DNA from: Actinomycetota bacterium
Lineage (GTDB): Bacteria > Actinomycetota > Acidimicrobiia > IMCC26256 > PALSA-610
DNA length: 64,000 nt
Direction of reading: 5' to 3'
Assembly (NCBI GenBank): GCA_005773635.1
Contig: SXHN01000054.1
Coordinates: 1 to 64,000, forward strand
The position numbers and the translations under genes were made by a program. A model generated the notes under the pieces. The model saw only the letters and a list, made by a program, of their open reading frames with translations, did no database searches and was not told the origin of the DNA. This document shows, piece after piece, positions 10,631 through 62,389 of this stretch. Each line of letters opens with the position of its first letter. Position 1 is the first letter of the stretch.

Positions 10631-12703
10631 CTACCGAGACGTGAGCTCGTAACCAGGATCGACTCGCTTGAGCTGGGCAATCAGCGCACCGGCGTTCGTG
10701 ACTGGAAGTTGGCATGTCGAGTGCTGGCACACGTATGCAGTTGAGTTGCTGTCCACGAGGCCGCGACCCGACAACAAGTAGACGGTCGAAGCCACTTGGG
10801 ACGCCATGTCTGGATTCGTATGGAGCACAACGCGATTGCGGGACAATCGCGTGTAGACGACCTCGAACAGCTTCCGCGTCGATATTTCGTCGGGGTCACC
10901 TGCGATCACGACTTCGACTGACGGAAAGGCGATCCGCGCTGCTGCTTCGAGCGCGTACCCAAAGCCGGTCGGATGCCGAACGAACAGTGTCGCGACACTC
11001 GCAATACATTCCGAACCAATTCGTAGGTATCGGGCGTTGTCTGTGATGGTGGAGAGACGCAACAACGCATTGGCCGCGAGCGAGTTCTCCGCAGGCGTCG
11101 CACTGTCCATCTGATCCTTTGCCCGCACGATGAGCCGCTCGGCATCGCTCCCAGTAGTGAAAAAGCCACCATTCACATCATCGTGAAAGAGCTCGATCAA
11201 TTCATCGGCTACCTCACATGCGGCTGGGAGCCATTCGATGCAGTCATATTCGCACAATGATGCGAGCGCCTCTGCGAGCGCGGCGTAGTCCTGCGCGTAC
11301 GCCAGCAGCCGGGCCTTGCCGTTGAGGCCCCAACCGTCGGTCGGCGCGGCATCTGCTTGCCACGTGCGCAGGAAGCGACCGTCGGCGCGGCGCAGGTTCG
11401 TCATCAGGAACTCGGTGGTGCGGCGGGCTTCGTGAATCCATCGCGGCTCTGCAAATGCCGCACCCGCCTCGCAGAGAGCACGGACCATCATCGCATTCCA
11501 CGCCAGCAGGACCTTGTCGTCACAGCCTGGGGTCACCCGTAACGCTCGACGTTCGCGCAGTTGACCAAGAGCCTCTAGGAGTGCGGGCGAAGGCTCGTGC
11601 TCTCGGTCCGCGAGATGCAGCACGTTGCCAGAAAAGTTCGAGTGCGGATCAACGAAGTTGCCCCGCTCACTCACCCCGTAAAATTTGGAAAACTCGAAAT
11701 ATTGCTCACCCAAGGCTTCGCGAAGTTCGGCGTCACTCCACGCGTAGTACTTGCCTTCGATTCCCTCGCTATCTGCGTCGAACGCGCTGAAGAAACCTCC
11801 ATCAGGATGGCGGAGTTCGTGCATGGCCCACTCGATCGTCTCGGCAACGATGCGACGGTAACGATCGTTGCGCGTGCGAAGCCATCCGTCGGTGTAGGCA
11901 CGAATCAACAGAGCGTTGTCGTACAGCATCTTTTCGAAATGCGGAATACACCACTCGTTGTCTGTCGAGTATCGAGCAAATCCGCCGCCAACTTGGTCGT
12001 AGATACCCCCGCACGCCATCGCGTCCAAGGTTGTAGTGAGCATCGCGGTGTCGGGGTCGTGGCGCGCGAGCAGAGACAGGGTTGCAGCTTGCGGGAATTT
12101 CGGTGCGCGCCCAAAGCCACCCCATTCCACGTCGAAATCCCTGCGCAACGTCGCGATTGCGTTGTCGAATGTTTCGGCTGTGACCGATTCGTGCGGCGTC
12201 TGCGGCAATTCAACTGTGATTGCCGCTGTCAGGTTCGTCGCGAGTTCATCTACCTCATCACGTCGTTCATGCCAGGCTTGCGAGATGGCTTCTGCGACGC
12301 GAGTAAATGACGGCAAACCGTGGCGATCCTGCGCAGGAAAATACGTGCCCGCATGGAACGGGGCGCCGTCGGGTGTGAGCCACACACTCATCGGCCAACC
12401 CCCGCTACCAGTCATCGTCTGGGTTGCCTGCATATAGATGGCATCGATGTCAGGGCGTTCCTCGCGGTCGACCTTGATATTGACAAACAACCGATTCATG
12501 ATTGCGGCCGTGGTGGTCGACTCGAAACTCTCGTGAGCCATGACGTGACACCAATGGCAAGCGGAGTAGCCAACCGACAAAAAGACCGGCACACCACGGT
12601 CGCGAGCAGCGGCGAACGCCTCATCGCCCCAGGGATACCAATCGATTGGATTGTCGGCGTGTTGGCGCAAATAGGGGCTTGTTTCCGCCGCCAGACGATT
12701 CAC
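10631..12703 (-). CDS. Thioredoxin domain-containing protein, YyaL/spermatogenesis-associated 20 family
   Basis: A 690-residue protein starting [30 protein letters not shown], the family signature. The thioredoxin-like (DUF255) domain carries [18 protein letters not shown] (CxxC-type motif) and [15 protein letters not shown], then a large (alpha/alpha)6 part ([46 protein letters not shown]) like N-acylglucosamine epimerase folds. Cellular role not established. I chose GTG 12703 because it overlaps the upstream stop in a GTGA and because family members begin there. The frame stays open to 12814 only through the repeat at 12707-12787. Confidence 0.85.
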
Positions 12704-14361
12704 AACGGGGACGCTTCGCTCGCGTCTATTGCTCGCTCGGCTCGGCTGCTCCGCGACGCCGCCCCTGGCGGGGACGCTTCGCTCGCGAGGCGGGTGGCGG
12801 TTTCGCAGGCCCACCGGTAGTCGGGTTTGCCCGAGGGCGAACGTTGGATTGCATCAACACGATACAGAGTCTTGGGAATTTTGTAGCCCGCGAGGTGCAA
12901 TCGCAAGCTGTCGAGAATATCGGCGCATAGTGCCATTTCAGTATCGAGATCTGCGATGGTCGACGTCGCTCTCGGCTGAAACAGCGCGACGACTCGCTCA
13001 CCAAAGCGAGCGTGCGCCACGCCGACCACCACGGCATCGAACACCGACGGGTGGGCCTTCAATTGAGATTCAACCTCGTCGGGGTAGACCTTCTCGCCAC
13101 CCGTGTTGATGCAGAGAGATCCGCGTCCGAGCAGCGTCACAGTCCCGTTCTCATTGCGTATCGCGTGATCTCCCGGCACCGACCAGCGCACGCCTGCGAC
13201 GGTGCGGAACGTGGCGGCAGTCTTGTCCGCGTCCTTGTAGTAGCCGACCGGTATGTGTCCGCGTCGAGCGAGGAGCCCGCTGGTACCGACTTCGGCAACT
13301 TGCAGCGTCATTTCGTCGAGAACTTCGGTGGTTTCGTCAAGTAGAAACATGGTGGCCTCGGCGGGCGACCCAAGCGCAGTCACTGCCTGGCCTTGCCCGC
13401 CAGTCTCGGACGCGCCGTAGCCATCGACGACGATGGTTTGTGGGAGTTCCTTGATCAAGGCGTGTTTGACAGCAGGCGACAGTACGGCACCGCCAGACAC
13501 GATTACGTTGAGGCAAGTAAGAGGCGAATCGGTTGCTCGCAGCACATCGACCATCGGAATCGCGAAAGCGTCGCCGACAATCACTATGAAATTTGCCTGT
13601 TCAGCAACGGTGAGTGCGAACACCGTCGCGGCATCGAAGTGACGGGTGTCGGTCAACACGACGCATCCTCCGGTCAACAGCGTCGACCAAGCCATCCAGT
13701 GTGCACTGCCGTGCATCAGCGGGCAGGCCGTGACGACTCGAATGCGACCGTGCATGCACCGTTGAGAAATATCCGTTGGCGAAGAAATAGGTGTTCGGCC
13801 GTTGCCTGCGCCTCCCAGGGCCGCGAAGAACAAGTCGACGTGGCGCCAGACGATTCCCTTTGGCATCCCAGTAGTGCCGCCGGTGTACAACACGTAGTGG
13901 TCGTTGCCCGACCTCGGTGCGAAGCCGCGACCATCATCGAGATGACGCAACTGCGCGTCATAGCCGCTATCGACGACAATGGTGTGCAGCAGCAAAGGCA
14001 ATGCAGGCATGACCTGTTCGACCTGGGTCGCGAACTCGGGATGGTAAATGATCGCAACAGCGTCGGCGTCGTCAAGTAGATACAGCAATTCATCAGCGAC
14101 GTATCGATAATTGACATTGATCGGTACGGCGCGCAGTTTGAACGACGCGATCATTGCTTCGAGGTATTCGACACAGTTGTGGAGATAGAGCGCGATGTGG
14201 TCGCCAGGGCCTACACCAAGATTTGCAAGTTGGTGCGCCAATCGATTGGCTCGACGGTCCAACTCCAAATAGGTGAACCGGCGATGGCCGTCGACGACTG
14301 CCTCGTGGTCTGGGATCGAGTCGACCACGAGTTCCCAAAGGTCGGCCAGGTTGAACTCCAT
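12700..14361 (-). CDS. FadD-like acyl-CoA synthetase (AMP-binding)
   Basis: A 553-residue ATP-dependent acyl-CoA ligase. Motifs: the P-loop-like [18 protein letters not shown] (about 171-188), the A5 region [12 protein letters not shown], the hinge [21 protein letters not shown], and a C-terminal domain with [19 protein letters not shown] and GKPDYRWA, whose lysine is the catalytic A10 type. The YTGGTTG...WRHVD pattern resembles mycobacterial FadD19-like steroid/branched-chain acyl-CoA synthetases; the substrate is inferred only. The last 25 or so residues ([20 protein letters not shown] and onward) are encoded by an 18-nt repeat pair and its spacer and look like a late extension. First gene of a pair with the YyaL-type gene. 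Confidence 0.87.
12707..12724 (-). repeat. 18-nt direct repeat at a gene junction, copy 1
   Basis: GGGGACGCTTCGCTCGCG (plus strand) is identical to 12770-12787. The two copies are offset by 63 nt, a multiple of three, so the ligase reads SEASP twice, and the frame upstream of the YyaL start reads RERSVP twice, 21 residues apart. The spacer is rich in GCTCGCTCGG-type sequence. Confidence 0.75.
12770..12787 (-). repeat. 18-nt direct repeat at a gene junction, copy 2
   Basis: Exact second copy of 12707-12724. Just before it, CCCC-TGGC-GGGG can form a small hairpin (12762-12773), a feature of small palindromic repeat elements. It lies inside the 3' end of the acyl-CoA synthetase gene. Confidence 0.75.
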
Positions 14362-14370
14362 GCGGAGGCG

Positions 14371-14376
14371 AACGTA
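14371..14376 (-). promoter_or_regulatory. Putative -10 (TACGTT on the minus strand)
   Basis: TACGTT lies 9 nt upstream of ATG 14361 of the acyl-CoA synthetase. No Shine-Dalgarno sequence is seen in the gap (CGCCTCCGC), so a leaderless transcript is likely. Confidence 0.35.
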
Positions 14377-14421
14377 TCGGTGCTATCGGCCGTCAGGGGA
14401 ATCTTGCCGCTTCGCCCGCGA

Positions 14422-15633
14422 CTATTGCTGAGCACCGACTGCAAATTTTGTGAACACCGAGGCGAACGAAGCACGAATCTCGATCGCGTCTGGTTGCCAC
14501 GCCGTGCCATGGGCAGCGCGATGAGCCTCCGCCGCGAGCCACCAATTGGCCTCAATCGGCGCCCAGGCGGCCCGAATATCCCCGGCGGCGCCCGACGAGG
14601 CTTCGGCGATGACGCGCAGCTGGTCGAATCGTTGCCAGACGGCAAGATCGCTGAACTCGATCGGTACCTGTGGACCGATGACCGGTACGTAAATGCTCAC
14701 GCAGGGGCTGCCGAGCGCTGCCCACACCTGTAGCTTGCGCGGATCAGAGGTCGAATCGCGCGGGAGTTCAACAATCATCGACGCCGCAGTCGTTTGGTAA
14801 TCGCGCACATGCATGCACACCGTGACGCCTTCGGCGCTGGCGCCGACTTCGGCGGGAATTGGCGTGGGCACATCTGCGGGCTGTAGCGGATTCCCCCAAC
14901 TCGGCCCGCCGTGGTCGCGCATTGCCACCGCAATGTCGCCAGGGTTCCGAGCCAGTAGTGCTGCCTGTCGCGTCACCAACAGACGATGATCAGCGTGATG
15001 GGTTGGGACGTTGTCGGGCCTCCAGGTCTGGATGTCGATCGGCGATCCTGAAGCATCATCGATGCTACAAAGATCCCAATCGCGCGCAAGAGAGATCCGG
15101 TTGCTGATTGCGCCGTGTCCATCAACACGCCGAGCGGCCCAAGCTCGATGGTTGGTTTCGATTGTCCATGCCGACTCCGCGTCGGCGACCAAGAAGCTGC
15201 TGTCGTAGGGGACGTTGTGGTGAGGCTCACCACTGCCTCCTTGGCCGTGGCTCGCGACGAGCGCGCAAATGATCTCGCGTGCCTCAGCGGCCGTGCAGGC
15301 CCGCTCCAACGCGAGCCGCACAATGTCCATCCCTAGCAGCGCTTCGGGTTTCGTCCGTGGGTCGGTGGTCGTCCAGATCTTTTCGTTGCCGACGGCGACA
15401 CCGTGTTCATTGACTCCGTGTTCGACGCCCCAAAGCCATGTGGGCTGCGAACCCAAAAAGCCGTACGCCCCAGGGTCGGGTCCAAGGTCAAGGTATTGCG
15501 TCCGTAGCCGTCGGGTAGCTGAAGCGCTCCGCGGCGAAAACCAGTGCAGTAATTGCGGCTCGCCCACGGGCCGGTCGCTGTTCTTGGCGAAGTACGTTGC
15601 GTGCGGTCGAATCGAACACAGCGTGTCGCACAC
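14422..15633 (-). CDS. Secernin-type C69-family peptidase
   Basis: A 403-residue protein of the N-terminal nucleophile class. Cys2 directly follows the initiator (CDTLCSIRPHATYFAKNSDRPVGEPQ), which fits the C69 dipeptidase/secernin family, in which this cysteine is the nucleophile. TWLWGVEHGVNEHGVAVGNEKIWTT and HHNVPYDSSFLVADAESAWTIET are the next conserved blocks, and ISNRISLARDWD follows. Family members are dipeptidases or relatives of unknown function. The start is a GTG at 15633, required so that the cysteine is at position 2. The gene follows a small membrane protein gene by 6 nt in the same direction. Confidence 0.83.
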   Translation of the reverse strand: MCDTLCSIRPHATYFAKNSDRPVGEPQLLHWFSPRSASATRRLRTQYLDLGPDPGAYGFLGSQPTWLWGVEHGVNEHGVAVGNEKIWTTTDPRTKPEALLGMDIVRLALERACTAAEAREIICALVASHGQGGSGEPHHNVPYDSSFLVADAESAWTIETNHRAWAARRVDGHGAISNRISLARDWDLCSIDDASGSPIDIQTWRPDNVPTHHADHRLLVTRQAALLARNPGDIAVAMRDHGGPSWGNPLQPADVPTPIPAEVGASAEGVTVCMHVRDYQTTAASMIVELPRDSTSDPRKLQVWAALGSPCVSIYVPVIGPQVPIEFSDLAVWQRFDQLRVIAEASSGAAGDIRAAWAPIEANWWLAAEAHRAAHGTAWQPDAIEIRASFASVFTKFAVGAQQ

Positions 15634-52251: not shown

Positions 52252-53870
52252 GGGTCGGGCTCCAATTCGGAAGGGCTGATCTCGTCGAGATCGCGTTGAT
52301 TGGTTTCGGGAAGAAACGGTACAACCAACACAGCCGCAATGAACGTGCCGAGGGCACACAACGCGATGGATCTTCCGATTCCACCAAAGGGATCGCGCAG
52401 TCGTCCGGCGATCTGCAACCCCACAACAGAGCCCATCACGCTGATCACCGTGACAAGACCATTCGATGTACCCCGCGTTTCGGTTGGGAATAGCTCAACA
52501 TTCTGTGTGCCGATAGCCAGTGCGCCGATAGCGAGGGCAGCGTCTCCGATGCCGGAGGCAAACCACAAGATCGGCCCACCGCTCAAAAAGAACAGTGCGC
52601 GGATCGCGGAACCGACACTCAGAGCGACGATCGCAACTGGGCGTCGTCCATACCGTTCGAGTAACCGACCCGAGACTGCAATCGCAAGGAACCCGGGCGC
52701 AGTAGTCGTGGCGAAACGAAACAGCAGGATGAAGCGGTTGGAGTAGTCGTGGACGTCGGTGAGATACGTATTGGTGAGTTGTGCCGATGGTGCAGACAGC
52801 ACATTCATGAAGAACCCAATGAGGGCCATCAAGATGAAGCGACGCCGGTATTGCGCACCAAAAACCTCACCTAGTCGTCCCCGTTGAATGGGGGCTCGTG
52901 CAATGCGTTCGTATCGCTTGGACTCTTCGAGATGTGAGCCGATCCGGCGGATCATGAGTGCGCTCGCCGCACTGACGAAGAGCATTCCTCGCCACGCCCA
53001 TGGCGCGAAATCCGAAAGCGGCAACAATATGACGTTCAGCGAAAAACCGACTCCGCCTGCGAGCGCGATCATCGTGGTTGCGAACGCTCGAGCACGTTCC
53101 GGCGCTTCCTCCAAGGCGCCGACCGCTGCCACAATGCCCGCCGCAGTCGCGAAACCGCGTGCGAAGGTTTGCAGTACCGTGAGGGTTGCAGGGTCCGGCG
53201 CAAATGCGCTGAGCAGGTTCGCTCCAGCCATTGCGAGGAGTGAATACAAGATGACGCGACGGCGTCCGAATCGATCGGCGAGGCCGCCCGCAACCAGGGC
53301 AACGAGCGCACCTGCTCGCATGAACGACAACATGTCCGTCCATCGCGCATCGGTAAGATCGAAGCTCTTTTTGATCGGGCTCCCGTATTGCCCAACGATC
53401 GATTGGCCAAATACGCCCACCGCAATCGCGAACCCTGCAGTGGCGAGGTACGTCGCTTGTTCTTTCGAATACGCGACCGGGGGCAACAACGGCGTCGGCT
53501 TCGGACGTTTCGGCTCGGCGGCGCCGGCCAAGTCGGAAGCGATCGCGGCACCGGCGAATACGCAAGCCTTTTCGTAGTGCAACATCAACATCGAAGTGAC
53601 GATGCCATTGAAATAGGGAAGTCTGAGGTCGTTACTGGCCGCAATGGTGAGCGCGGTGCCTTGACCGGTTTCGCTCGGCACGCACGTGAAGCGCATCGTT
53701 CCGTCGTCACTCGGATCGTCGTCGATTATTGCCCGAAAGGTTCGGACCTCGAACCCGTCATCTTCGCTCGTCGAATCCAGCACCGCGTTGAATCGGGCGA
53801 CGAGTAACTCCTCAACGGCCTCACGCGATGATTCAAGTTCAACGACGATCGAATGCTGCACGGGCGGCAT
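52248..53870 (-). CDS. MFS transporter with an N-terminal soluble domain
   Basis: A 540-residue protein. Residues 1-135 are soluble (MPPVQHSIVVELESSREAVEELLVARF, EVRTFRAIIDDDP, MRFTCVPSETGQGTALTIAASNDLRLP) and have the look of a SRPBCC/polyketide-cyclase-type or START-like domain, an unusual fusion. The membrane part has about 12 segments, with the MFS signature GGLADRFGRRRVILYSLL in the 2-3 loop and SGRLLERYGRRPVAIVAL in the 8-9 loop, as in sugar/organic-acid transporters. Coupled to the lactonase. ATG 53870 fits the divergent peroxiredoxin gene at 53905. Confidence 0.78.
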   Translation of the reverse strand: MPPVQHSIVVELESSREAVEELLVARFNAVLDSTSEDDGFEVRTFRAIIDDDPSDDGTMRFTCVPSETGQGTALTIAASNDLRLPYFNGIVTSMLMLHYEKACVFAGAAIASDLAGAAEPKRPKPTPLLPPVAYSKEQATYLATAGFAIAVGVFGQSIVGQYGSPIKKSFDLTDARWTDMLSFMRAGALVALVAGGLADRFGRRRVILYSLLAMAGANLLSAFAPDPATLTVLQTFARGFATAAGIVAAVGALEEAPERARAFATTMIALAGGVGFSLNVILLPLSDFAPWAWRGMLFVSAASALMIRRIGSHLEESKRYERIARAPIQRGRLGEVFGAQYRRRFILMALIGFFMNVLSAPSAQLTNTYLTDVHDYSNRFILLFRFATTTAPGFLAIAVSGRLLERYGRRPVAIVALSVGSAIRALFFLSGGPILWFASGIGDAALAIGALAIGTQNVELFPTETRGTSNGLVTVISVMGSVVGLQIAGRLRDPFGGIGRSIALCALGTFIAAVLVVPFLPETNQRDLDEISPSELEPDP

Positions 53871-53904
53871 GCTAAGCAGTGGCAACTCACTTCGGAGGTA
53901 CCCC

Positions 53905-54369
53905 ATGACGCAACTCAAGATTGGCGACGCTGTACCCAAGTTCGCATTGAGCGATCAGCACGGCAATATCGTCAAGTCCACGCAATTCAAAGGGCGGTTT
54001 TTGGTGATCTATTTCTATCCTCGTGCCGACACGCCCGGGTGCACAACCCAGTCTTGCGCGGTACGCGACGCCTTTCCCGATCTCAAGGCGTTGAACGCCG
54101 CAGTGTTGGGCGTTTCCCCCGATACTCCAGCCAAACAGTTGAAATTCGACGAGAAGTACAGCCTTGGCTTTCCGCTGCTGGCCGATGTAGACCACGAGAT
54201 GGCGGATTCGTTTGGAGTCTGGGCCGAGAAGATGAACTACGGCAAGAAATACATGGGGATTGTCCGCAGCGCGTTCGTAGTAGATCCCAAAGGGAAACTC
54301 GTTGGCGTGATGTACAAGGTCAGCCCCAAAGACACCGTCCCGAAAGCAACCTCAGCTATCTCAGGTTGA
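53905..54369 (+). CDS. bcp: Thiol peroxidase, BCP/PrxQ type
   Basis: A 154-residue peroxiredoxin. The peroxidatic cysteine is C46 and the resolving cysteine C51, in YPRADTPGCTTQSCAVRD, the BCP pattern with Cx4C. SDQHGNIVKSTQFKGRFLVIYFYP and MGIVRSAFVVDPKGKLVGVMYKVSPKDT are typical. It reduces hydroperoxides using thioredoxin or mycoredoxin. ATG 53905 is preceded by GGAGGTACCCC, a strong site. Convergent with fabI, 6 nt between the stops. Confidence 0.93.
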   Translation: MTQLKIGDAVPKFALSDQHGNIVKSTQFKGRFLVIYFYPRADTPGCTTQSCAVRDAFPDLKALNAAVLGVSPDTPAKQLKFDEKYSLGFPLLADVDHEMADSFGVWAEKMNYGKKYMGIVRSAFVVDPKGKLVGVMYKVSPKDTVPKATSAISG

Positions 54370-54375
54370 GCGTGC

Positions 54376-55134
54376 CTATCCGATCGCGTGGTAGCCGCCG
54401 TCGACGTGGATGACCTCTCCTGTTGTTGCGGGGAACCAGTCGCTCATCAGCGCCACGCAGGCCCGCGCCACGGGATCGGCATTGCGAACATCCCAACCGA
54501 GCGGTGCTCGAAGCGTCCACGCGTCTTCGAATTGTTCGAATCCGGGAATTGACTTTGCCGCGATGGTTCTGATCGGGCCCGCCGCAACGAGGTTGACACG
54601 AATCCCGTGAGGGCCGAGGTCTCGAGCCAGGTACCTCGCTACGGATTCGAACGCGGCTTTCGCCACCCCCATCCAGTCGTAGACCGGCCAAGCCACTGTC
54701 GAGTTGTCGAAGTCGAGTCCCACGATCGCACTCCCGGGTGTCATCAGCGGTTGACAGGCGACTGCGAGCGACTTCAACGAGAACGCGCTCACCTGCATAG
54801 CAATGGCCACATCATCCCACGGTGCAGTCAGAAATCCTCCGCCGAGGCAAGAGTCTGGCGCGTAACCGATCGCGTGCAGCACTCCGTCGAGCGGTGCGCC
54901 GATGCGCGATGCAAGTGCAGCAAGATCGGCTTCATTGGTGATATCGAGTTCGACGATTTGAGCATCGGGATTGGGAAGCCTGCGGGCCGCGCGCGTCGTG
55001 AGCGATAATGCACGACCGAACGATGTGAGCACGATTTCGGCACCTTCGTTTTGGGCTTGACGTGCCACCGAGAAGGCGATGGACGCATCGTTCAACACGC
55101 CGGTGATCAGAATTCGCTTGCCTTCAAGCAACAT
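54376..55134 (-). CDS. fabI: Enoyl-ACP reductase, InhA/FabI type
   Basis: A 252-residue SDR that reduces trans-2-enoyl-ACP. KRILITGVLNDASIAFSVARQAQNEGAEIVLTSFGR is the FabI NAD loop, and the active site is Y152 and K159 in VYDWMGVAKAAFESVARYLARDLG, with LDFDNS upstream; this matches the mycobacterial InhA pattern (DF..., YNWMxVAK) more closely than E. coli FabI. GPIRTIAAKSIPGF is the substrate-loop region. AGGAG lies 8 nt before the ATG. Last gene of the fatty acid operon. Confidence 0.94.
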   Translation of the reverse strand: MLLEGKRILITGVLNDASIAFSVARQAQNEGAEIVLTSFGRALSLTTRAARRLPNPDAQIVELDITNEADLAALASRIGAPLDGVLHAIGYAPDSCLGGGFLTAPWDDVAIAMQVSAFSLKSLAVACQPLMTPGSAIVGLDFDNSTVAWPVYDWMGVAKAAFESVARYLARDLGPHGIRVNLVAAGPIRTIAAKSIPGFEQFEDAWTLRAPLGWDVRNADPVARACVALMSDWFPATTGEVIHVDGGYHAIG

Positions 55135-55152: not shown

Positions 55153-56487
55153 CTAGAGGGGGGAGTTGGAGTGGCGCCGCCGCCGGCTGTTTCGAGTCTT
55201 CAACGCCAATGTTTCGAATGCCTCGATCACTGCGCTGCGAGTTGTCGCAGGGTTGATCACATCGTCGACGAAACCCCGATCGGCGGCCTGCCAAGGGTTC
55301 AGGAATCGAAGTTCGTATTCATCGGCGGTGAGTCCTTTGGATCCGAGAATCTGGGTGGCGCCGTCGGTGCCCATGACTGCAATTTGCGCCCCGGGCCAAG
55401 CAAAACAGATGTCGTTTCCAATTCCGCGTGAATCCATCACGATGTACGCGCCGCCGAAGGCCTTGCGCATGATCACACTGACTCTCGGCACGGTGGCATC
55501 GCAATACGCGTGCACAAGCTGAGCGCCATGTCGGATCATGCCCCGCCACTCAAGATCACGACCGGGCTCGAATCCGGGCGTGTCGACCAACGTCAGGATG
55601 GCGATATTGAAAGCATCGCACCATGTCACGAAGCGAGCCGCCTTACGAGAAGCCTCGATGTCGAGTGTGCCAGCTCTCCACTGGGGCTGATTCGCAACAA
55701 CGCCAACGGTGCGGCCTTGTAATCGCACGAGCGCCGTCACCAGATTCGGTGCGTATGTCTCTCGAAGCTCGAGAACTGAGTCCGCGTCGGCTATATCCGC
55801 GATGATGTTTCGCACGTCGTACGGCGTATTCATGTTGGTTGGGATGATTTGCAAGATCGGTTCGTTCGCACGAGCCCGCGGATCCGCGACGAGGACTACC
55901 GGTGGTTCGGAGAGTGAATTCGATGGGAGATACGACAACACCAATTCGATAAACGTGTGGAGGTCTTCGGGGCTGTCAACAATGGCGCAAGTAACTCCGG
56001 AATCTCGACTATGAACGACAGCACCACCGAGTTCGGTGCGATTCACAATCTCGCCAGTAACGGCGGCAGTGTCTCCGGGGCCACTGACGTATGCGAATGC
56101 GTTGGTGGCCATGACAGCAATGTCCGCGATGCCCAGGAGTAGTGACGGACCCGAGACGCATGCGCCCGCGACTCCGAACAGAATCGGAACCGCACCGGAC
56201 GCGTCGACGATGGCTTTGGCCAGGAGTCCCCATCCATGAAGTGCACTGATGCCTTCCGAGACATCCGCACCTCCGGAATCGAGCACAATGACAATCGGAA
56301 TTTGGTGACGAGTCGCGAGCCGAACCCCTCGAATCGCAGTTTCGGCACCGCGTAGCCCAATCGCGCCGTGGCGGCGACCTCCAGCAATGTCGATCCACAC
56401 GACTCTGCGCCCATCGACGATCTGAATCTCGGCGCGGACCGCCGCGTCGCCAAACCGTGCGATACTCACCGAACGTGATGCCGACAC
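55153..56487 (-). CDS. Short carboxyltransferase-like (AccD/PccB-type) protein
   Basis: A 444-residue protein with two crotonase-like carboxyltransferase domains. N-domain: GAAIRGVRLATRHQIPIVIVLDSGGADVSEG region and PILFGVAGACVSGPSLLLGIADIAVMATNAFAYVSGPG. C-domain: LQGRTVGVVANQPQWRAGTLDIEASRKAARFVTWCDAFNIAILTLVDTPGFEPG, AFGGAYIVMDSRGIGNDICFAWPGAQIAVMG, RGFVDDVINPATTR. It is about 70 residues shorter at the N-terminus than PccB/AccD5-type subunits; the usual KLxARERIxxLLDxGSF segment is absent. The product site (GG-AY...) is intact. Start is GTG 56487. In a normal complex it would carboxylate acetyl-CoA using biotin on BCCP, but the neighbour lacks the lysine. Confidence 0.78.
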   Translation of the reverse strand: MSASRSVSIARFGDAAVRAEIQIVDGRRVVWIDIAGGRRHGAIGLRGAETAIRGVRLATRHQIPIVIVLDSGGADVSEGISALHGWGLLAKAIVDASGAVPILFGVAGACVSGPSLLLGIADIAVMATNAFAYVSGPGDTAAVTGEIVNRTELGGAVVHSRDSGVTCAIVDSPEDLHTFIELVLSYLPSNSLSEPPVVLVADPRARANEPILQIIPTNMNTPYDVRNIIADIADADSVLELRETYAPNLVTALVRLQGRTVGVVANQPQWRAGTLDIEASRKAARFVTWCDAFNIAILTLVDTPGFEPGRDLEWRGMIRHGAQLVHAYCDATVPRVSVIMRKAFGGAYIVMDSRGIGNDICFAWPGAQIAVMGTDGATQILGSKGLTADEYELRFLNPWQAADRGFVDDVINPATTRSAVIEAFETLALKTRNSRRRRHSNSPL

Positions 56488-56522: not shown

Positions 56523-57791
56523 TCATTGCGCGGGCGAAACGATGAGCGAAGCGTTATGTCCGCCGAATCCAAACGAGTTAGAAAGCGCACACGCCGATGG
56601 GATCGCACGGGTTGCTCCAGCGACGACATCGAGTTCGAACGCAGGGTCGACCTGATCGAGATTCGCGGTGGGCGGGACCTGTTGCTTCGCCATGGACAGC
56701 ACCGCGGCGACGGCTTCCACGGCACCGGCGGCGCCGATCAGGTGCCCTGTGATGCCTTTGGTTGAAGTCACTGGCACCGCTCGCGGTCCAAAGACCTTCG
56801 TTACTGCCTCGGCCTCGGCCGCATCATTGAGTGGAGTCGAAGTGCCATGCGCGTTGACATGTCCAATAGCGTTGGCTGCAATCGCGGCGTCTTGCAACGC
56901 GAGTTCGATGCATGCGGCGGCGCCCGCTCCGCCCGGTGAAGGAGCGGTGATGTGATGCGAGTCTGAGTTGCGGCCGTAGCCAACGATCTCGCCATAGATT
57001 CTCGCCCCGCGCGCGACGGCCAGGTCCCAACGTTCGAGGATGAGCGCCCCGGCACCTTCGCCCATGACGAATCCGTCTCTGCCTTCGTCGAACGGCCGCG
57101 AGGCCCGCGACGGGTCGTCGGTTCGACCCGAGAGCGCAGTCATGCGACCGAATGCACTGATCGCCACTGGCGTCATACACGACTCCGCGCCCATTCCAAT
57201 AGCAACGTCGGATTCACCGTAGCGAATTAGGTTGGCGGCATCGCCGATAGCATTGGTGCCCGCAGCACAGGCAGTAGCAACTGCAATATTTGGTCCCGTC
57301 CATCCAAACTGCAGCGATACCAGCGCAGGTGTTGCGTTCGTCATCATCATTGGCACAAGAAACGGGCTAACTCGGTTCGGTCCCTTTTCGATCATCACCC
57401 CGATTTGTTCTTCCAAGGTGATGAGCCCGCCGATCCCAACGCCGGCAATGATTCCGCACCGCGACGGATCGGCTTCGATTGGAGTGCCGTGCGCGTTGGC
57501 GTCAGCGAGAGCGTCGGCGGCGGCGGCGAAACCCAGGATCGAAACGCGGTCGAGACGCCGTGCCTCCTTCGGTGTGACATAGGCACTGACATCGAAATCT
57601 GGGACCTCACACCCAATCTGCACAGTCAACTCGGACGGGTCGAATCGCTCGATGCGCTTGGCGCATGACTCGCCACTATTGAGGCGCGACCAAAATGTTG
57701 CAAGGTCGTTGCCCGCAGGAGACATGACGCCGAGACCAGTGATCGCCACTCGGTGACGCCCGCGATGGTCGAGATGACTGGAGATCAACAT
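56523..57791 (-). CDS. fabF: Beta-ketoacyl-ACP synthase II
   Basis: A 422-residue thiolase-fold condensing enzyme. The nucleophile is C175 (VATACAAGTNAIGDA), the two histidines are in GHVNAHGTSTPLNDAAEA and KGITGHLIGAAGAVEAV. RVAITGLGVMSPAGND starts the domain, and SNSFGFGGHNASLI ends it. Together with FabH and FabG it elongates acyl-ACP. The ATG at 57791 follows the acpP stop by 6 nt. Confidence 0.95.
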   Translation of the reverse strand: MLISSHLDHRGRHRVAITGLGVMSPAGNDLATFWSRLNSGESCAKRIERFDPSELTVQIGCEVPDFDVSAYVTPKEARRLDRVSILGFAAAADALADANAHGTPIEADPSRCGIIAGVGIGGLITLEEQIGVMIEKGPNRVSPFLVPMMMTNATPALVSLQFGWTGPNIAVATACAAGTNAIGDAANLIRYGESDVAIGMGAESCMTPVAISAFGRMTALSGRTDDPSRASRPFDEGRDGFVMGEGAGALILERWDLAVARGARIYGEIVGYGRNSDSHHITAPSPGGAGAAACIELALQDAAIAANAIGHVNAHGTSTPLNDAAEAEAVTKVFGPRAVPVTSTKGITGHLIGAAGAVEAVAAVLSMAKQQVPPTANLDQVDPAFELDVVAGATRAIPSACALSNSFGFGGHNASLIVSPAQ

Positions 57792-57797
57792 CGTTGA

Positions 57798-58040
57798 CTA
57801 GGACAGCTTGCTCAACACAAGGTCGACCGCGTGCCCAATAGTGGTAACGCCATCGAGGTCTTCTTCTGGGACCTGGATGTCGAAACGTTCTTCGAGACCC
57901 ATTACGAGCTCAACAAGATCGAGACTGTCGGCATCGAGATCTTCTTTGAAGCGTGCGGACTCGACTATTTGATCGGCTTCGACGGAGAGCACTTCGGTGG
58001 CGACTTCGCGTACTGCTTCAAGTGCATGAGATCGGTCCAT
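57798..58040 (-). CDS. acpP: Acyl carrier protein
   Basis: An 80-residue ACP. The phosphopantetheine serine is S39 in FKEDLDADSLDLVELVMGLEERFDI. EALxxVREVATEVLSVEADQI and GVTTIGHAVDLVLSKLS are the flanking helices. Very acidic, as expected. ATG 58040 follows AAAGGAAATC, a good ribosome site; longer starts upstream are not used. Confidence 0.95.
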   Translation of the reverse strand: MDRSHALEAVREVATEVLSVEADQIVESARFKEDLDADSLDLVELVMGLEERFDIQVPEEDLDGVTTIGHAVDLVLSKLS

Positions 58041-58107: not shown

Positions 58108-58854
58108 TCAGTGGCCCATCGCGAGGCCACCGTCGACGGGGATGATTGCTCCAGTGATGTAGGCCGCAGCCTCAGAGCATAAGAAGTCGATGGTCGTTGC
58201 CACCTCATCGACGGTACCGAATCGCCCGAGCGGCACTTGGGCCTCAAGCTTGTCGATCCAAGCTTGGGGCATTTCGGCCGTCATCGCGGTACGTATCGGG
58301 CCTGGGGCGACAATGTTGGCGGTAATGCCGCGCGATCCGAGTTCTCTTGCCACGCTGCGGGTCAATCCAACCAGTCCTGCTTTCGCCGCGGCATAGTTCG
58401 CTTGCCCGGCGCTGCCGAGTTGGCCACTCGCGGACGCGACATTGATGATTCGCCCGTATCGGGCTTTCATCATGGCCGGCGAGCACCGTTTGATCATTGA
58501 AAAGGCTCCGGTGAGATTGGTGTTGATCACCGCATTCCAGTTTTCTTCGCTCATGCGCATCGAGAGGCCATCTCGTGTTATTCCTGCATTGTTCACGAGC
58601 ACTGTTATCGCGCCAAATTCCGATTCCACCGATGTGCACGCGGCCTCAATCGATGACGGTTCGGCGACATCGATGCACACGGGTAGCGCCGACCCCGACG
58701 CCTGCAGAATCGCGGCAACGACCGCATTGGCTCCGTCGGCATCGCTCACATAACCGACGCCAACGTGAAACCCGGACGCACCCAGGCGAATCGCAGTTGC
58801 GGCACCGATGCCCTTCGAAGCTCCTGTCACAATCGCAGTTCGCCGGACACTCAT
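58108..58854 (-). CDS. fabG: 3-oxoacyl-ACP reductase
   Basis: A 248-residue SDR. TAIVTGASKGIGAATAIRLGASG is the NADPH loop, LVNNAGITRDGLSMRMSEENWNAVINTNLTGAF follows, and the catalytic set is S141, Y154, K158 (NVASASGQLGSAGQANYAAAKAG). The PGPIRTAMTAEMPQ and ITGAIIPVDGGLAMGH ends are typical. ATG 58854 overlaps the fabH stop by 4 nt. Confidence 0.94.
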   Translation of the reverse strand: MSVRRTAIVTGASKGIGAATAIRLGASGFHVGVGYVSDADGANAVVAAILQASGSALPVCIDVAEPSSIEAACTSVESEFGAITVLVNNAGITRDGLSMRMSEENWNAVINTNLTGAFSMIKRCSPAMMKARYGRIINVASASGQLGSAGQANYAAAKAGLVGLTRSVARELGSRGITANIVAPGPIRTAMTAEMPQAWIDKLEAQVPLGRFGTVDEVATTIDFLCSEAAAYITGAIIPVDGGLAMGH

Positions 58855-59870
58855 CGGGATTCTTTCGTGGTCGCTGGCCATCGCAGTACTGATGTAGCCG
58901 TGGTGAGTCCAGCTCCGAACCCACACGCCAAGACCGTGTCACCCGGGCGTATGCGACCGTCGTCGACTGCTTCGAATAATGCTAACGGGATCGATGCCGA
59001 AGATGTGTTGCCGTAGCGATCGAGATTGACGACAGTTCTGCTCATTGCAATGTTGAGTCGGCTGGCTGCTGCTGTGATGATTCGAATGTTGGCTTGATGG
59101 GGGATGAACCAGTCAACGTCGTCGCAGGTCAAAGACGCGCGGTTGAGTGCTCGCTGGCAGGACTCCACTACTGCCAAGACCGCTCGTTTGAAGACCTCTT
59201 GGCCGTTCATGCTGATGAAGTGATCCCCTGAATCCAAAGTCTTTTGCGACGACGGAAGCTTCGAGCCCCCGGCAAGCACTCCGAGAATTGCTGTCGCGGA
59301 GCCGTCGCATCCGAGATCGTTGGACAAGAACGATTCGAATTCACTTGCATGTGCGGATACGACCGCTGCACCCGCGCCATCGCCGAACAAGATTGCCGTA
59401 GCGCGATCGTCAGGATCGACGATCCGGCTCATCGTCTCCGATCCCACGACAAGTACGTTGGGAATGCCATTGCGTGCCATACCGACCGCGACTTCGAGCG
59501 CATACACGAAGCCGGAACACGCGGCGTTGATGTCGAAGCTGCCACAGCTCAGGCCGAGTTCGTGGCCTACGAAAGCGCCGGTGTGTGGCATCAACTGCTC
59601 TGGGGTGCACGTTGCAACGATCATGAGGCCAATGTCGTTGGGGAATAATCCCGCGCGCGCGATTGCGGCGCGGGCCGCTTGTGCTGCGAGGGTCGCAGTT
59701 GTTTCGTCATCATTGGCGAAGAACCGCTGGCGAATGCCTGTGCGTTCGTATATCCACGCGTCAGTGGTTTCAAGGCGCCGTGATAGATCGTCATTGGTCA
59801 CAATCGTGGTGGGCAGCGCGACGCCCCAGCCAGTGATGGCACAGTGGCTGTTGGAACCGGGCTGTGTCAT
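58851..59870 (-). CDS. fabH: Beta-ketoacyl-ACP synthase III
   Basis: A 339-residue initiation condensing enzyme. Nucleophile C118 (FDINAACSGFVYALEVAVG), histidine in DWFIPHQANIRIITAAASRL and asparagine in VVNLDRYGNTSSASIPLAL. ETTDAWIYERTGIRQRFF and ILFGDGAGAAVV are further signatures. ATG 59870 overlaps the BCCP-like stop by 4 nt. Primes the chain from acyl-CoA. Confidence 0.95.
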   Translation of the reverse strand: MTQPGSNSHCAITGWGVALPTTIVTNDDLSRRLETTDAWIYERTGIRQRFFANDDETTATLAAQAARAAIARAGLFPNDIGLMIVATCTPEQLMPHTGAFVGHELGLSCGSFDINAACSGFVYALEVAVGMARNGIPNVLVVGSETMSRIVDPDDRATAILFGDGAGAAVVSAHASEFESFLSNDLGCDGSATAILGVLAGGSKLPSSQKTLDSGDHFISMNGQEVFKRAVLAVVESCQRALNRASLTCDDVDWFIPHQANIRIITAAASRLNIAMSRTVVNLDRYGNTSSASIPLALFEAVDDGRIRPGDTVLACGFGAGLTTATSVLRWPATTKESR

Positions 59871-60178
59871 GAACGGATCCAAGCGACCGGTTGGCCTTTG
59901 CGGACACGTTCGCCATCTTGCGCCATGACTCCCATGAACCGACCCGCGAACGCGCTGCGTACGGGCCGTACACCCTGGGTGGTTCGCACAACGCCGACAC
60001 TTTGGCCCTCCTCAACGTAGGCGCCACGGAATGCCATGGCGGTGAGGTGGAACGTTCCCGTTACCGGTGCAACGATCAAGCGTTCAGCGATGCCACTAGT
60101 TTCGCCGCGGTACCTCACTGCCGCATCCACGTCGCTACCAGATGTTCGCGAGCGAATATTCGCGGCGGCGCTGGTCAT
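59867..60178 (-). CDS. BCCP-like biotinyl-domain protein lacking the biotin lysine motif
   Basis: A 103-residue protein. Residues 34-102 align with an AccB-type biotinyl domain: IVAPVTGTFHLTAMAFRGAYVEEGQSVGVV, then the second half AFAGRFMGVMAQDGERVRKGQPVAWI, matching GTF...V.GQ...V and V..DG..V..GQP...I. Where AccB has EAMKM, this protein has RTTQG (65-69), so there is no lysine to be biotinylated. The N-terminal 33 residues are unstructured. It sits between fabD and fabH with 4-nt overlaps on both sides. It may be a structural or regulatory paralogue, but biotin carriage is very unlikely. Confidence 0.72.
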   Translation of the reverse strand: MTSAAANIRSRTSGSDVDAAVRYRGETSGIAERLIVAPVTGTFHLTAMAFRGAYVEEGQSVGVVRTTQGVRPVRSAFAGRFMGVMAQDGERVRKGQPVAWIRS

Positions 60179-61137
60179 GGGGTTCCTCGGTTGGATTGAG
60201 TTGCGAGAGTGTCGAGCATTGTCAGCGCAGATGTGGCCGTCTCGGGTGACGAAATCCCGAGCACGGCTATGCCAGGCACGGTACGCTTCGCTACGCCTGC
60301 GACCATGGATCCGTGACCGACTTCGAGCATCGCGTCGGCGTGTTGCTCACGTATCAACGCCTCCATGGACGAACGCCACCGCACGCGTTGTGTTGGGTGC
60401 ACGGCGAGCCGATCGCGCCATCCGGAACCATCCCGATATTGCGTCGCGTCTGCATTGGACACGACGCAATGGTGCGTATCTTTGAGCTCTGTCGATTCGA
60501 GCGACTGTCTCAGGGTTGCGACGGCGCCTTGCATCAAAGGGGTGTGAAAGGCGCCGTCGACCGCGAGTGGTAGTGCCTTGCGGATTCCGAGTTCTTTGCC
60601 ACGCTCGATAGCTGCCGTCACCCCCTCAGGCGTGCCAGCGATGACGATTTGTCCAGGAGCATTGTCGTTGGCAACCCAGACATCGCCTGCAGAGTCACAT
60701 GCCGCTTCAGCTTGCTCCAGACTCGCACCAACGAACGCAGCCATGCGCCCTGGGTGCCGCGACGCTTCGTGTTGTGTCGCCGTAGCACGAACTTCGGCGA
60801 AGCCGATCCCTTGATTGAGTGATATTGATCCGGCGGCTATCAGTGCGGTCACTTGCCCGAGAGAGTGACCAGCAAAACCGACGATCTCATGCGAAGAATC
60901 CTCGAGTGCTTCTGAAATCGCTCCCCAGGCAATCAGTGAATTGCAAAGTACTGAGAGTTGGGCGAGACGGGTGCTCGAGAGCTCGGCAGCCGTTGCTTCG
61001 CACAGCAGATGGGTCAGCGAGATTGAATTCGCATCGATCGCTGCTTCGACGGTGTCCCAGCAACGGTGGCCCTTCCAAGGGGTGCCCATTCCGGGAGATT
61101 GCGTACCTTGACCGGGAAACACGATGGCGATACGCAC
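60175..61137 (-). CDS. fabD: Malonyl-CoA:ACP transacylase
   Basis: A 320-residue acyltransferase that loads malonyl groups on ACP. FPGQGTQSPGMG holds the glutamine, the nucleophilic serine is in VGFAGHSLGQVTALIAAG, FAEVRATATQH holds the arginine and VDGAFHTPLMQGA the histidine. The residue after the GHSLG is Q instead of the usual E. GTG 61137 is chosen with AAAGGA 12 nt upstream. First gene of the fab operon, divergent from fabZ. Confidence 0.92.
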   Translation of the reverse strand: MRIAIVFPGQGTQSPGMGTPWKGHRCWDTVEAAIDANSISLTHLLCEATAAELSSTRLAQLSVLCNSLIAWGAISEALEDSSHEIVGFAGHSLGQVTALIAAGSISLNQGIGFAEVRATATQHEASRHPGRMAAFVGASLEQAEAACDSAGDVWVANDNAPGQIVIAGTPEGVTAAIERGKELGIRKALPLAVDGAFHTPLMQGAVATLRQSLESTELKDTHHCVVSNADATQYRDGSGWRDRLAVHPTQRVRWRSSMEALIREQHADAMLEVGHGSMVAGVAKRTVPGIAVLGISSPETATSALTMLDTLATQSNRGTP

Positions 61138-61285
61138 GCGGAGTAACAATCCTTTGGATGGTGGGGAAGTGGTTCGTACGACTCTTGGAGTCAACGAGGG
61201 TTACTTGGTTTCGAAGATATTCACATCAGTATCTCAGTCGAGGATGGTTACCGTCAGGTATTCAATGAACAGCTACGTTCGGACG
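61138..61285. promoter_or_regulatory. Divergent control region between fabD and fabZ
   Basis: 148 bp. Contains TACGTT (61274-61279), 6 nt before fabZ ATG 61286, and AAAGGA for fabD. A clear palindromic operator (such as a FasR or FapR-type site) was not recognised by eye. Confidence 0.35.
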
Positions 61286-61702
61286 ATGAGCAACGACCCA
61301 ATTGGCCTGCTTGCGCACCGACCCCCATTTCGATTCGTGGATGTTGTGGACGAACTGATTCCTGGGCAACTGTGTGTGGCGCGTTGGCAGATAACCGGCG
61401 ATGAAGCGTGGCTCGCTGGGCACTTTCCGGAGAACCCGATCGTGCCTGGCGTGTTGCAACTCGAAGCACTCGCGCAGGTGGGAGCGATTGCGCTGCTCAG
61501 CGACGAGCGATATGCCGGAAAATTGCCGCTCTTTGGCGGAGTGGATGCAGTGCGTTGGAAACGCATCGTGCGTCCGGGCGACGAACTGCTGCTACGGGTC
61601 GAAGTTGAACAGCTCAGCGCACGCGGGGGCTGGGCGACCGCCGTGGCTTCGGTTTCGGGTGACACGTCGGTTCGAGCGCGGCTCCTGTTCGCGATTGCCT
61701 GA
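61286..61702 (+). CDS. fabZ: 3-hydroxyacyl-ACP dehydratase FabZ
   Basis: A 138-residue hotdog enzyme. The catalytic histidine H46 and glutamate E60 lie in WLAGHFPENPIVPGVLQLEALAQVGAI. AHRPPFRFVDVVDELIPGQ is the N-terminal block, and GVDAVRWKRIVRPGDELLLRVEVEQL follows. It dehydrates beta-hydroxyacyl-ACP and is the only fab gene of this cluster on the plus strand. ATG 61286 is favoured by TACGTT 6 nt upstream; an ATG at 61265 is also in frame. Confidence 0.9.
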   Translation: MSNDPIGLLAHRPPFRFVDVVDELIPGQLCVARWQITGDEAWLAGHFPENPIVPGVLQLEALAQVGAIALLSDERYAGKLPLFGGVDAVRWKRIVRPGDELLLRVEVEQLSARGGWATAVASVSGDTSVRARLLFAIA

Positions 61703-62096: not shown

Positions 62097-62177
62097 GCCC
62101 GAGTGGTGGAATGGCAGACACGACGGATTCAAAATCCGTTGCCGCAAGGCGTGTGGGTTCAAGTCCCACCTCGGGTA
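62097..62177 (+). tRNA. tRNA-Leu (anticodon CAA)
   Basis: A class II tRNA. Acceptor arms GCCCGAG (62097-62103) and CTCGGGT (62170-62176) pair with one G-T at the end; the discriminator A is at 62177. The anticodon stem ACGGA/TCCGT encloses TTCAAAA, so the anticodon is CAA, which reads UUG. A long variable arm (TGCCGCAAGGCGT) and the T-loop GGTTCAAGTCC are present. CCA is not encoded (ACT follows), so it is added after transcription. Confidence 0.95.
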
Positions 62178-62389
62178 CTCATTTTCGCAGGTCAGAGCAT
62201 GGCAAACGTGCTTGTAAACACTGCTTGGGGCACACCCTGGTCACCAACGAAATGCTTCACGCGGATACACCGTCGCGAGCGTTGGCTTTTGCCAGCAGTC
62301 GTGGCGCAGTGGGCGCTACTGTTTGCTCAAGAGCTGGTGGGCACAACTCTTCTCAACTAGACATCGTTATGAGCGGAGAGAAGTAGTTC

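Follow-up and report, generated by a model that had tools for sequence, protein, structure and literature searches.

A lysine-less biotinyl-like domain accompanies FabD in fatty acid synthesis operons of Actinomycetota

What is the function of a protein in a fatty acid synthesis operon that resembles a biotin carrier but has no residue to carry biotin? This question is raised by a gene at positions 59867–60178 (minus strand) of the window, the whole 64,000-nt stretch of an Acidimicrobiia contig analysed here, which encodes a 103-residue, lysine-less biotinyl/lipoyl-like protein of the barrel-sandwich hybrid (BSH) fold. The gene lies in an operon of the order fabD, BSH gene, fabH, fabG, acpP, fabF, accD and fabI, all on the minus strand. 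These genes encode malonyl-CoA:ACP transacylase (fabD, 60175–61194, the longest open reading frame, with the true start probably further in; PF00698 E=3 × 10−20, TIGR00128), β-ketoacyl-ACP synthase III (fabH, 58851–59870), 3-oxoacyl-ACP reductase (fabG, 58108–58854), acyl carrier protein (acpP, 57798–58040), β-ketoacyl-ACP synthase II (fabF, 56523–57791, matching above the curated cut-off), an N-terminally short carboxyltransferase-like subunit classified by tree, motif and census as fab-type AccD (55153–56487, matching Carboxyl_trans from profile position 47) and a fabI/InhA-type enoyl-ACP reductase (54376–55134). A divergent fabZ stands at the operon head (61124–61702, plus strand; PF07977, NF000582), and its true start is probably the ATG near 61266. 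At the other end a peroxiredoxin-like gene, Bcp-type by eye (53686–54369, plus strand), converges with fabI, and a tRNA-Leu (CAA) gene lies at 62097–62178 (plus strand), where the open reading frames called over the tRNA are spurious.

The initial annotation had described the protein as a BCCP-like domain with RTTQG in place of EAMKM, unable to hold biotin, and this description was borne out by both alignment and structure prediction. Residues 47–100 align without gaps to PF00364 (Biotin_lipoyl) at 20.4 bits, just below the cut-off of 22.1, and the protein likewise fell below the curated cut-offs of the other BCCP models scored, PRK07051 (small BCCP; E=1.7 × 10−6, 28.1 bits, cut-off 87) and TIGR00531 (20.5 bits, cut-off 115.2). 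AlphaFold, supplied with 52 sequences, predicted a confident biotinyl fold for residues 31–103 (pLDDT 94–98 over most of them), and the best Foldseek matches of this model in the PDB were the biotinyl domains 5gua, 1bdo, 2d5d and 9a87 (TM-score by target 0.81–0.87), with E. coli AccB and Arabidopsis BCCP1 among the top matches. The codons of RTTQG (59972–59986, minus strand) specify hairpin residues 65–69, placing Q68 at the biotin position, and the protein lacks what defines a BCCP, the hairpin lysine. Nor is it the biotin carrier of the cell, as it has no such lysine and intact carriers are encoded elsewhere in its own genome, where three frames of 600–700 codons, the size of BC–BCCP proteins, contain EAMKM or ESMKM domains. 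The 4-nt overlaps reported with both neighbours are exact: an ATGA at 60175–60178 combines the fabD stop with the BSH start, an arrangement (0–4 nt) that recurs in many relatives and points to translational coupling, and a second ATGA at 59867–59870 joins the BSH gene to fabH when the fabH ATG at 59870 is taken. A GAGGA sequence precedes the BSH start.

A scan of genome contigs with the single sequence returned no match, and an alignment-based scan returned 54 loci; about 40 of the 61 nearest genomes contain a homologue (E<10−6), and a profile search found further homologues beyond the class of the window, in additional families of the phylum. The genomes surveyed are mostly metagenome-assembled, and one named record, Aquihabitans sp. 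G128 (Acidimicrobiales), is a complete genome. The typical homologue has 86–90 residues, starts on or close to the stop codon of a preceding open reading frame of about 320–350 codons and follows the consensus GE.L.VPERMIVAPxVGVFRP...GxxVxxGQxIGVxEGPGTSTPVxSPFxGxLMGMLAxxGERLREGQPVAWLRVA, with a weak but significant sequence similarity to BCCPs. The hairpin is usually EGPGTST, with an alternative form four residues shorter that predominates among the FabD-fused forms of Acidimicrobiia. No model in Pfam or NCBIfam covers the BSH protein or the fused C-terminal domain above its cut-off, and the open-access PMC literature yielded no paper on the family or on FabD with lipoyl/biotinyl domains. Two further records were noted: a typical Acidimicrobiia fab operon with a BSH domain in a ‘Bifidobacterium breve' metagenome-assembled genome (CAMDCC010000112.1), which is probably misnamed, and a weakly similar lysine-less barrel-sandwich segment (JAHBXY010000093.1, 8998–9153; L093) in a Planctomycetota metagenome-assembled genome, a one-off match inside an apparent YqeB-type protein (selenium-dependent molybdenum hydroxylase).

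Alignment of the homologues, the check proposed at the outset, turned up none with an intact lysine: the residue was absent from the biotin column in all 107 distinct homologues, as was the AMKM motif. A lysine one position away, in EGKGH, occurs sporadically (L048, L050 and L065) and has no AMK context. The family thus appears, as judged from its sequences, never to hold biotin, and because the lysine is missing throughout a phylum-wide family, the idea that it was lost from an AccB finds no sign of a recent event. A sequencing error at the motif is ruled out by a same-genus relative with CSTGR and by the lysine-less homologues. One could still suppose that a BCCP decayed not long ago and persists by chance or as a spacer for translation, as the window hairpin RTTQG differs from the family EGPGT; this is close to inconceivable and is refuted by the conservation across the 107 homologues, including Gly, Arg, Phe and Trp columns shared between families, together with the conserved position, the fusion to FabD and the confident fold. 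The initial proposal that the gene is maintained and co-translated holds.

The fusions identify the principal partner. In all named loci with a complete operon the BSH gene lies between fabD and fabH, as it does in more distant families of the phylum, and in several Acidimicrobiia families BSH forms the C-terminal domain of FabD itself (L074, L084, L088, L089, L098, L100, L101, L105, L106 and others). In a second actinobacterial class 71 of 197 genomes match BSH at E≤1.1 × 10−11, and all ten loci inspected there encode FabD–BSH fusions followed by fabH and acpP; we infer that this class is Actinomycetes because its FabD part is closest to that of S. coelicolor (1nm2). Within the fused proteins the FabD part is unremarkable (E=10−105 to 1nm2): solved FabDs, such as those of S. 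coelicolor and M. tuberculosis (2qc3), align with it up to about residue 307 of the fused protein, whereas the C-terminal domain of 70–90 residues is absent from them. The AlphaFold model of the L074 fusion, in which FabD and the BSH domain are both confident and the linker is of low confidence and poorly ordered, is consistent with a tethered module. BSH was found either adjoining fabD or fused to the C terminus of FabD, with the exceptions of L052 and L132, where it stands beside accD, and of one-offs such as L093. Of the new scaffolding or regulatory role first suggested, scaffolding remains the best interpretation; what needs amending is the partner, since on the genomic evidence FabD is the constant companion of the domain and a specific, atypical AccD its second associate.

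One alternative is that BSH is purely a part of FabD or of FAS-II, stabilizing or oligomerizing FabD or recruiting ACP or FabH, and that its tie to AccD is indirect, arising from lineages that keep or lose a whole FAS-II variant. FabD is after all the constant and in many lineages covalent partner, FabH is the usual downstream neighbour, and conserved arginines (in GERxRxGQPVAWLR) could meet the acidic ACP. Three observations speak against this explanation, which we consider unlikely, if the most serious of the rivals. The first is a mirror-tree comparison of 32 operons, in which the partial rank correlation of BSH, a value confounded by shared ancestry, was 0.49 for AccD, 0.22 for FabD, 0.17 for FabF, 0 for AcpP and −0.14 for FabH, so that the signal is absent for AcpP and FabH; AccD ranked first in 96% of the bootstraps over loci, though accD lies five genes away. 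The second is that BSH and accD are found together apart from fabD. In L052 a fab-type accD with no fab operon around it immediately follows the BSH gene, and L132, which belongs to another family, has the BSH gene immediately before an accD outside a fab operon. The third is that the co-occurrence is specific to one clade of AccD.

This clade was delimited in a tree of AccD sequences, in which the operon AccDs formed a fab-type clade with a support of 0.985, a wider group that also took in the additional AccDs from five genomes with FabD fusions received a support of 0.76, and none of the AccDs of eleven BSH-less genomes fell inside the fab-type clade; one mistranslated sequence (G697) was disregarded. 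Among operons read at both ends (named and fetched loci), 35 contained both BSH and accD, two (plus L087) only BSH and none only accD; six (plus G044, in two contigs) contained neither, all from the order of the window. Across a census of 149 Acidimicrobiia genomes, 55 had both BSH and a fab-type AccD, 5 only BSH, 2 only the AccD and 87 neither; collapsed by family, which is the only correction made for phylogeny, the counts were 20, 4, 1 and 15 (Fisher's exact test P=2 × 10−6), and shared ancestry confounds this co-occurrence as well. AccD class was assigned by score against the AccD of the window, with two low scorers (G430 and G438) counted for their operon position, and the co-occurrence includes genomes with that AccD outside the operon. 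G041 and G014, in which only the AccD was seen, have contigs that end at acpP or within fabG, leaving the fabD–fabH interval out of view. Housekeeping AccDs scored about the same in BSH-bearing as in BSH-less genomes, which argues against a mere effect of relatedness. The notion that accD generally belongs to the operon was ruled out, as most operons outside the class and L059, L080 and L087 carry BSH without it; the genome of L059 (G020) has its AccD elsewhere, and the five BSH-only census genomes, G005 and the genome of L087 bear BSH with no fab-type AccD. Two further observations concern the operons themselves. In five BSH-less operons (L170, L172, L174, L175 and L179; families f11 and f18) fabH is also missing and fabG directly follows fabD, and at 11300–14830 of JAOSJK010000001.1 (L070) fabF, accD and fabI are each broken over several frames, probably through assembly indels.

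The fab-type AccD is itself atypical. It lacks about 60 N-terminal residues relative to the housekeeping AccD of the same genome (L220), and the N-domain motif of the latter, GPCAGGAVYSPA, is G(P/A)(C/A)VSGP(A/S)LLLG in most fab-type AccDs and HGGLATLLG-like in a few; in the window, VSGPSLLLG replaces AGGAVYSPA. In PccB-type enzymes an oxyanion hole is formed by glycines of this motif. The fab-type AccDs retain the C-domain GGAY motif, and the AccDs associated with BSH outside Acidimicrobiia have the N-domain motif intact. Because the oxyanion-hole motif is replaced, the fab-type subunit alone probably does not act as a normal carboxylase; a canonical paralogue is encoded elsewhere in the genome of the window (G000:C122:16362-17630). 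To our knowledge, AccD6 has not been reported together with a lysine-less domain. AccD6 of the FAS-II locus of M. tuberculosis (4fb8), reported as a source of malonyl-CoA (PMC4949712), resembles the fab-type AccD in being encoded with FAS-II genes.

Loss of a hallmark of biotin-dependent carboxylation in each of the two acetyl-CoA carboxylase-like parts could also mean that FabD, BSH and fab-type AccD assemble without biotin into a complex of decarboxylase type that acts on malonyl-ACP or malonyl-CoA to supply an acetyl-ACP primer. Malonate decarboxylase (MdcD/E/H) combines carboxyltransferase-like subunits with a FabD-like transacylase (MdcH) and is biotin-independent, and the co-occurring parts are homologous to the carboxyltransferase, transacylase and carrier components of such enzymes. 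The likeness is a resemblance only: the AccD of the window is of the single-chain PccB type, and no genes like mdcA or mdcC (acetyl-S-ACP:malonate transferase and the special ACP) were seen among those of the fab operon. Moreover, the altered oxyanion motif is the very one that would stabilize the enolate, and lineages with BSH but only canonical AccDs would go unexplained, making this a rather improbable explanation.

The reading we prefer, to which we assign an even chance, is that BSH, carrying no biotin, serves as a docking domain between FabD and a carboxyltransferase-type subunit and favours the hand-over of malonyl groups. The protein of the window would be the split-gene form of a FabD accessory domain which, without the biotinyl lysine, would dock rather than carry. 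From the genomic association we infer that BSH binds FabD and AccD, and the contact with AccD would most likely lie on or close to the face where BCCP ordinarily docks its biotinyl domain; FabD would thereby be held at the carboxylase, favouring direct transfer of malonyl-CoA to FabD and ACP. The probable partner in Acidimicrobiia is the fab-type AccD encoded in the operon, which may, as the docking subunit, join a mixed carboxyltransferase hexamer with the housekeeping AccD; carboxylases built of two different beta subunits are found among solved structures, such as 9t97, for which chains D4 and D5 are listed. Plain hand-over of malonyl-CoA from the Acidimicrobiia subunit is doubtful because its catalytic motif is lost, and counting against docking as such are the BSH-bearing genomes that lack a fab-type AccD and the operons read outside the class of the window, most of which have no accD nearby. 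We rate BSH as a pseudo-carrier with a new partner. More tentatively, it may belong to an unrecognized FAS-II module of Actinomycetota, a biotin-free complex built of carboxylase parts at FabD, in which FabD with a pseudo-biotinyl docking domain, covalent or split, and in Acidimicrobiia a pseudo-carboxyltransferase would control or channel the malonyl supply. Bacterial fatty acid synthesis has FabD among its core enzymes, and malonyl-CoA is usually assumed to reach it by free diffusion. With BSH attached to FabD over much of the phylum and tracking one AccD subfamily, the question of a FabD–carboxylase complex becomes directly testable.

The fold is shared with BCCPs such as E. coli AccB (1bdo), the Pyrococcus protein (2d5d), PRK07051 and PRK08225, from which the family differs in its missing lysine and AMKM motif, its variable hairpin length and its FabD partner. 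The closest working parallel, by function and not necessarily by descent, is plant BADC1–3 of the heteromeric acetyl-CoA carboxylase. BADC is BCCP-like without the AMKL motif and has been reported as an inhibitor or an assembly ‘glue' (PMC11926652); like BSH it would be a non-catalytic component of fatty acid synthesis, but it is plastidial, tied to the BC–BCCP subcomplex and with no reported FabD link or fusion. The BSH family would in this sense be a bacterial counterpart of BADC, and it offers protein family libraries an unannotated domain. A more literal parallel, in which BSH is a dummy BCCP that inhibits or helps to assemble the housekeeping acetyl-CoA carboxylase, would use the same trick as BADC in a genome that does encode BC–BCCP-sized proteins and a small biotinyl protein with intact motifs; we hold it to be quite improbable, since covalent fusion and one-to-one coupling to FabD do not suggest a general carboxylase inhibitor and BSH is missing from many genomes with a housekeeping AccD. 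The small biotinyl protein, a stand-alone product of 75 residues with an intact ESMKM (G000:C115:117326-117499; L007), is encoded away from the fab operon and is possibly a real small carrier.
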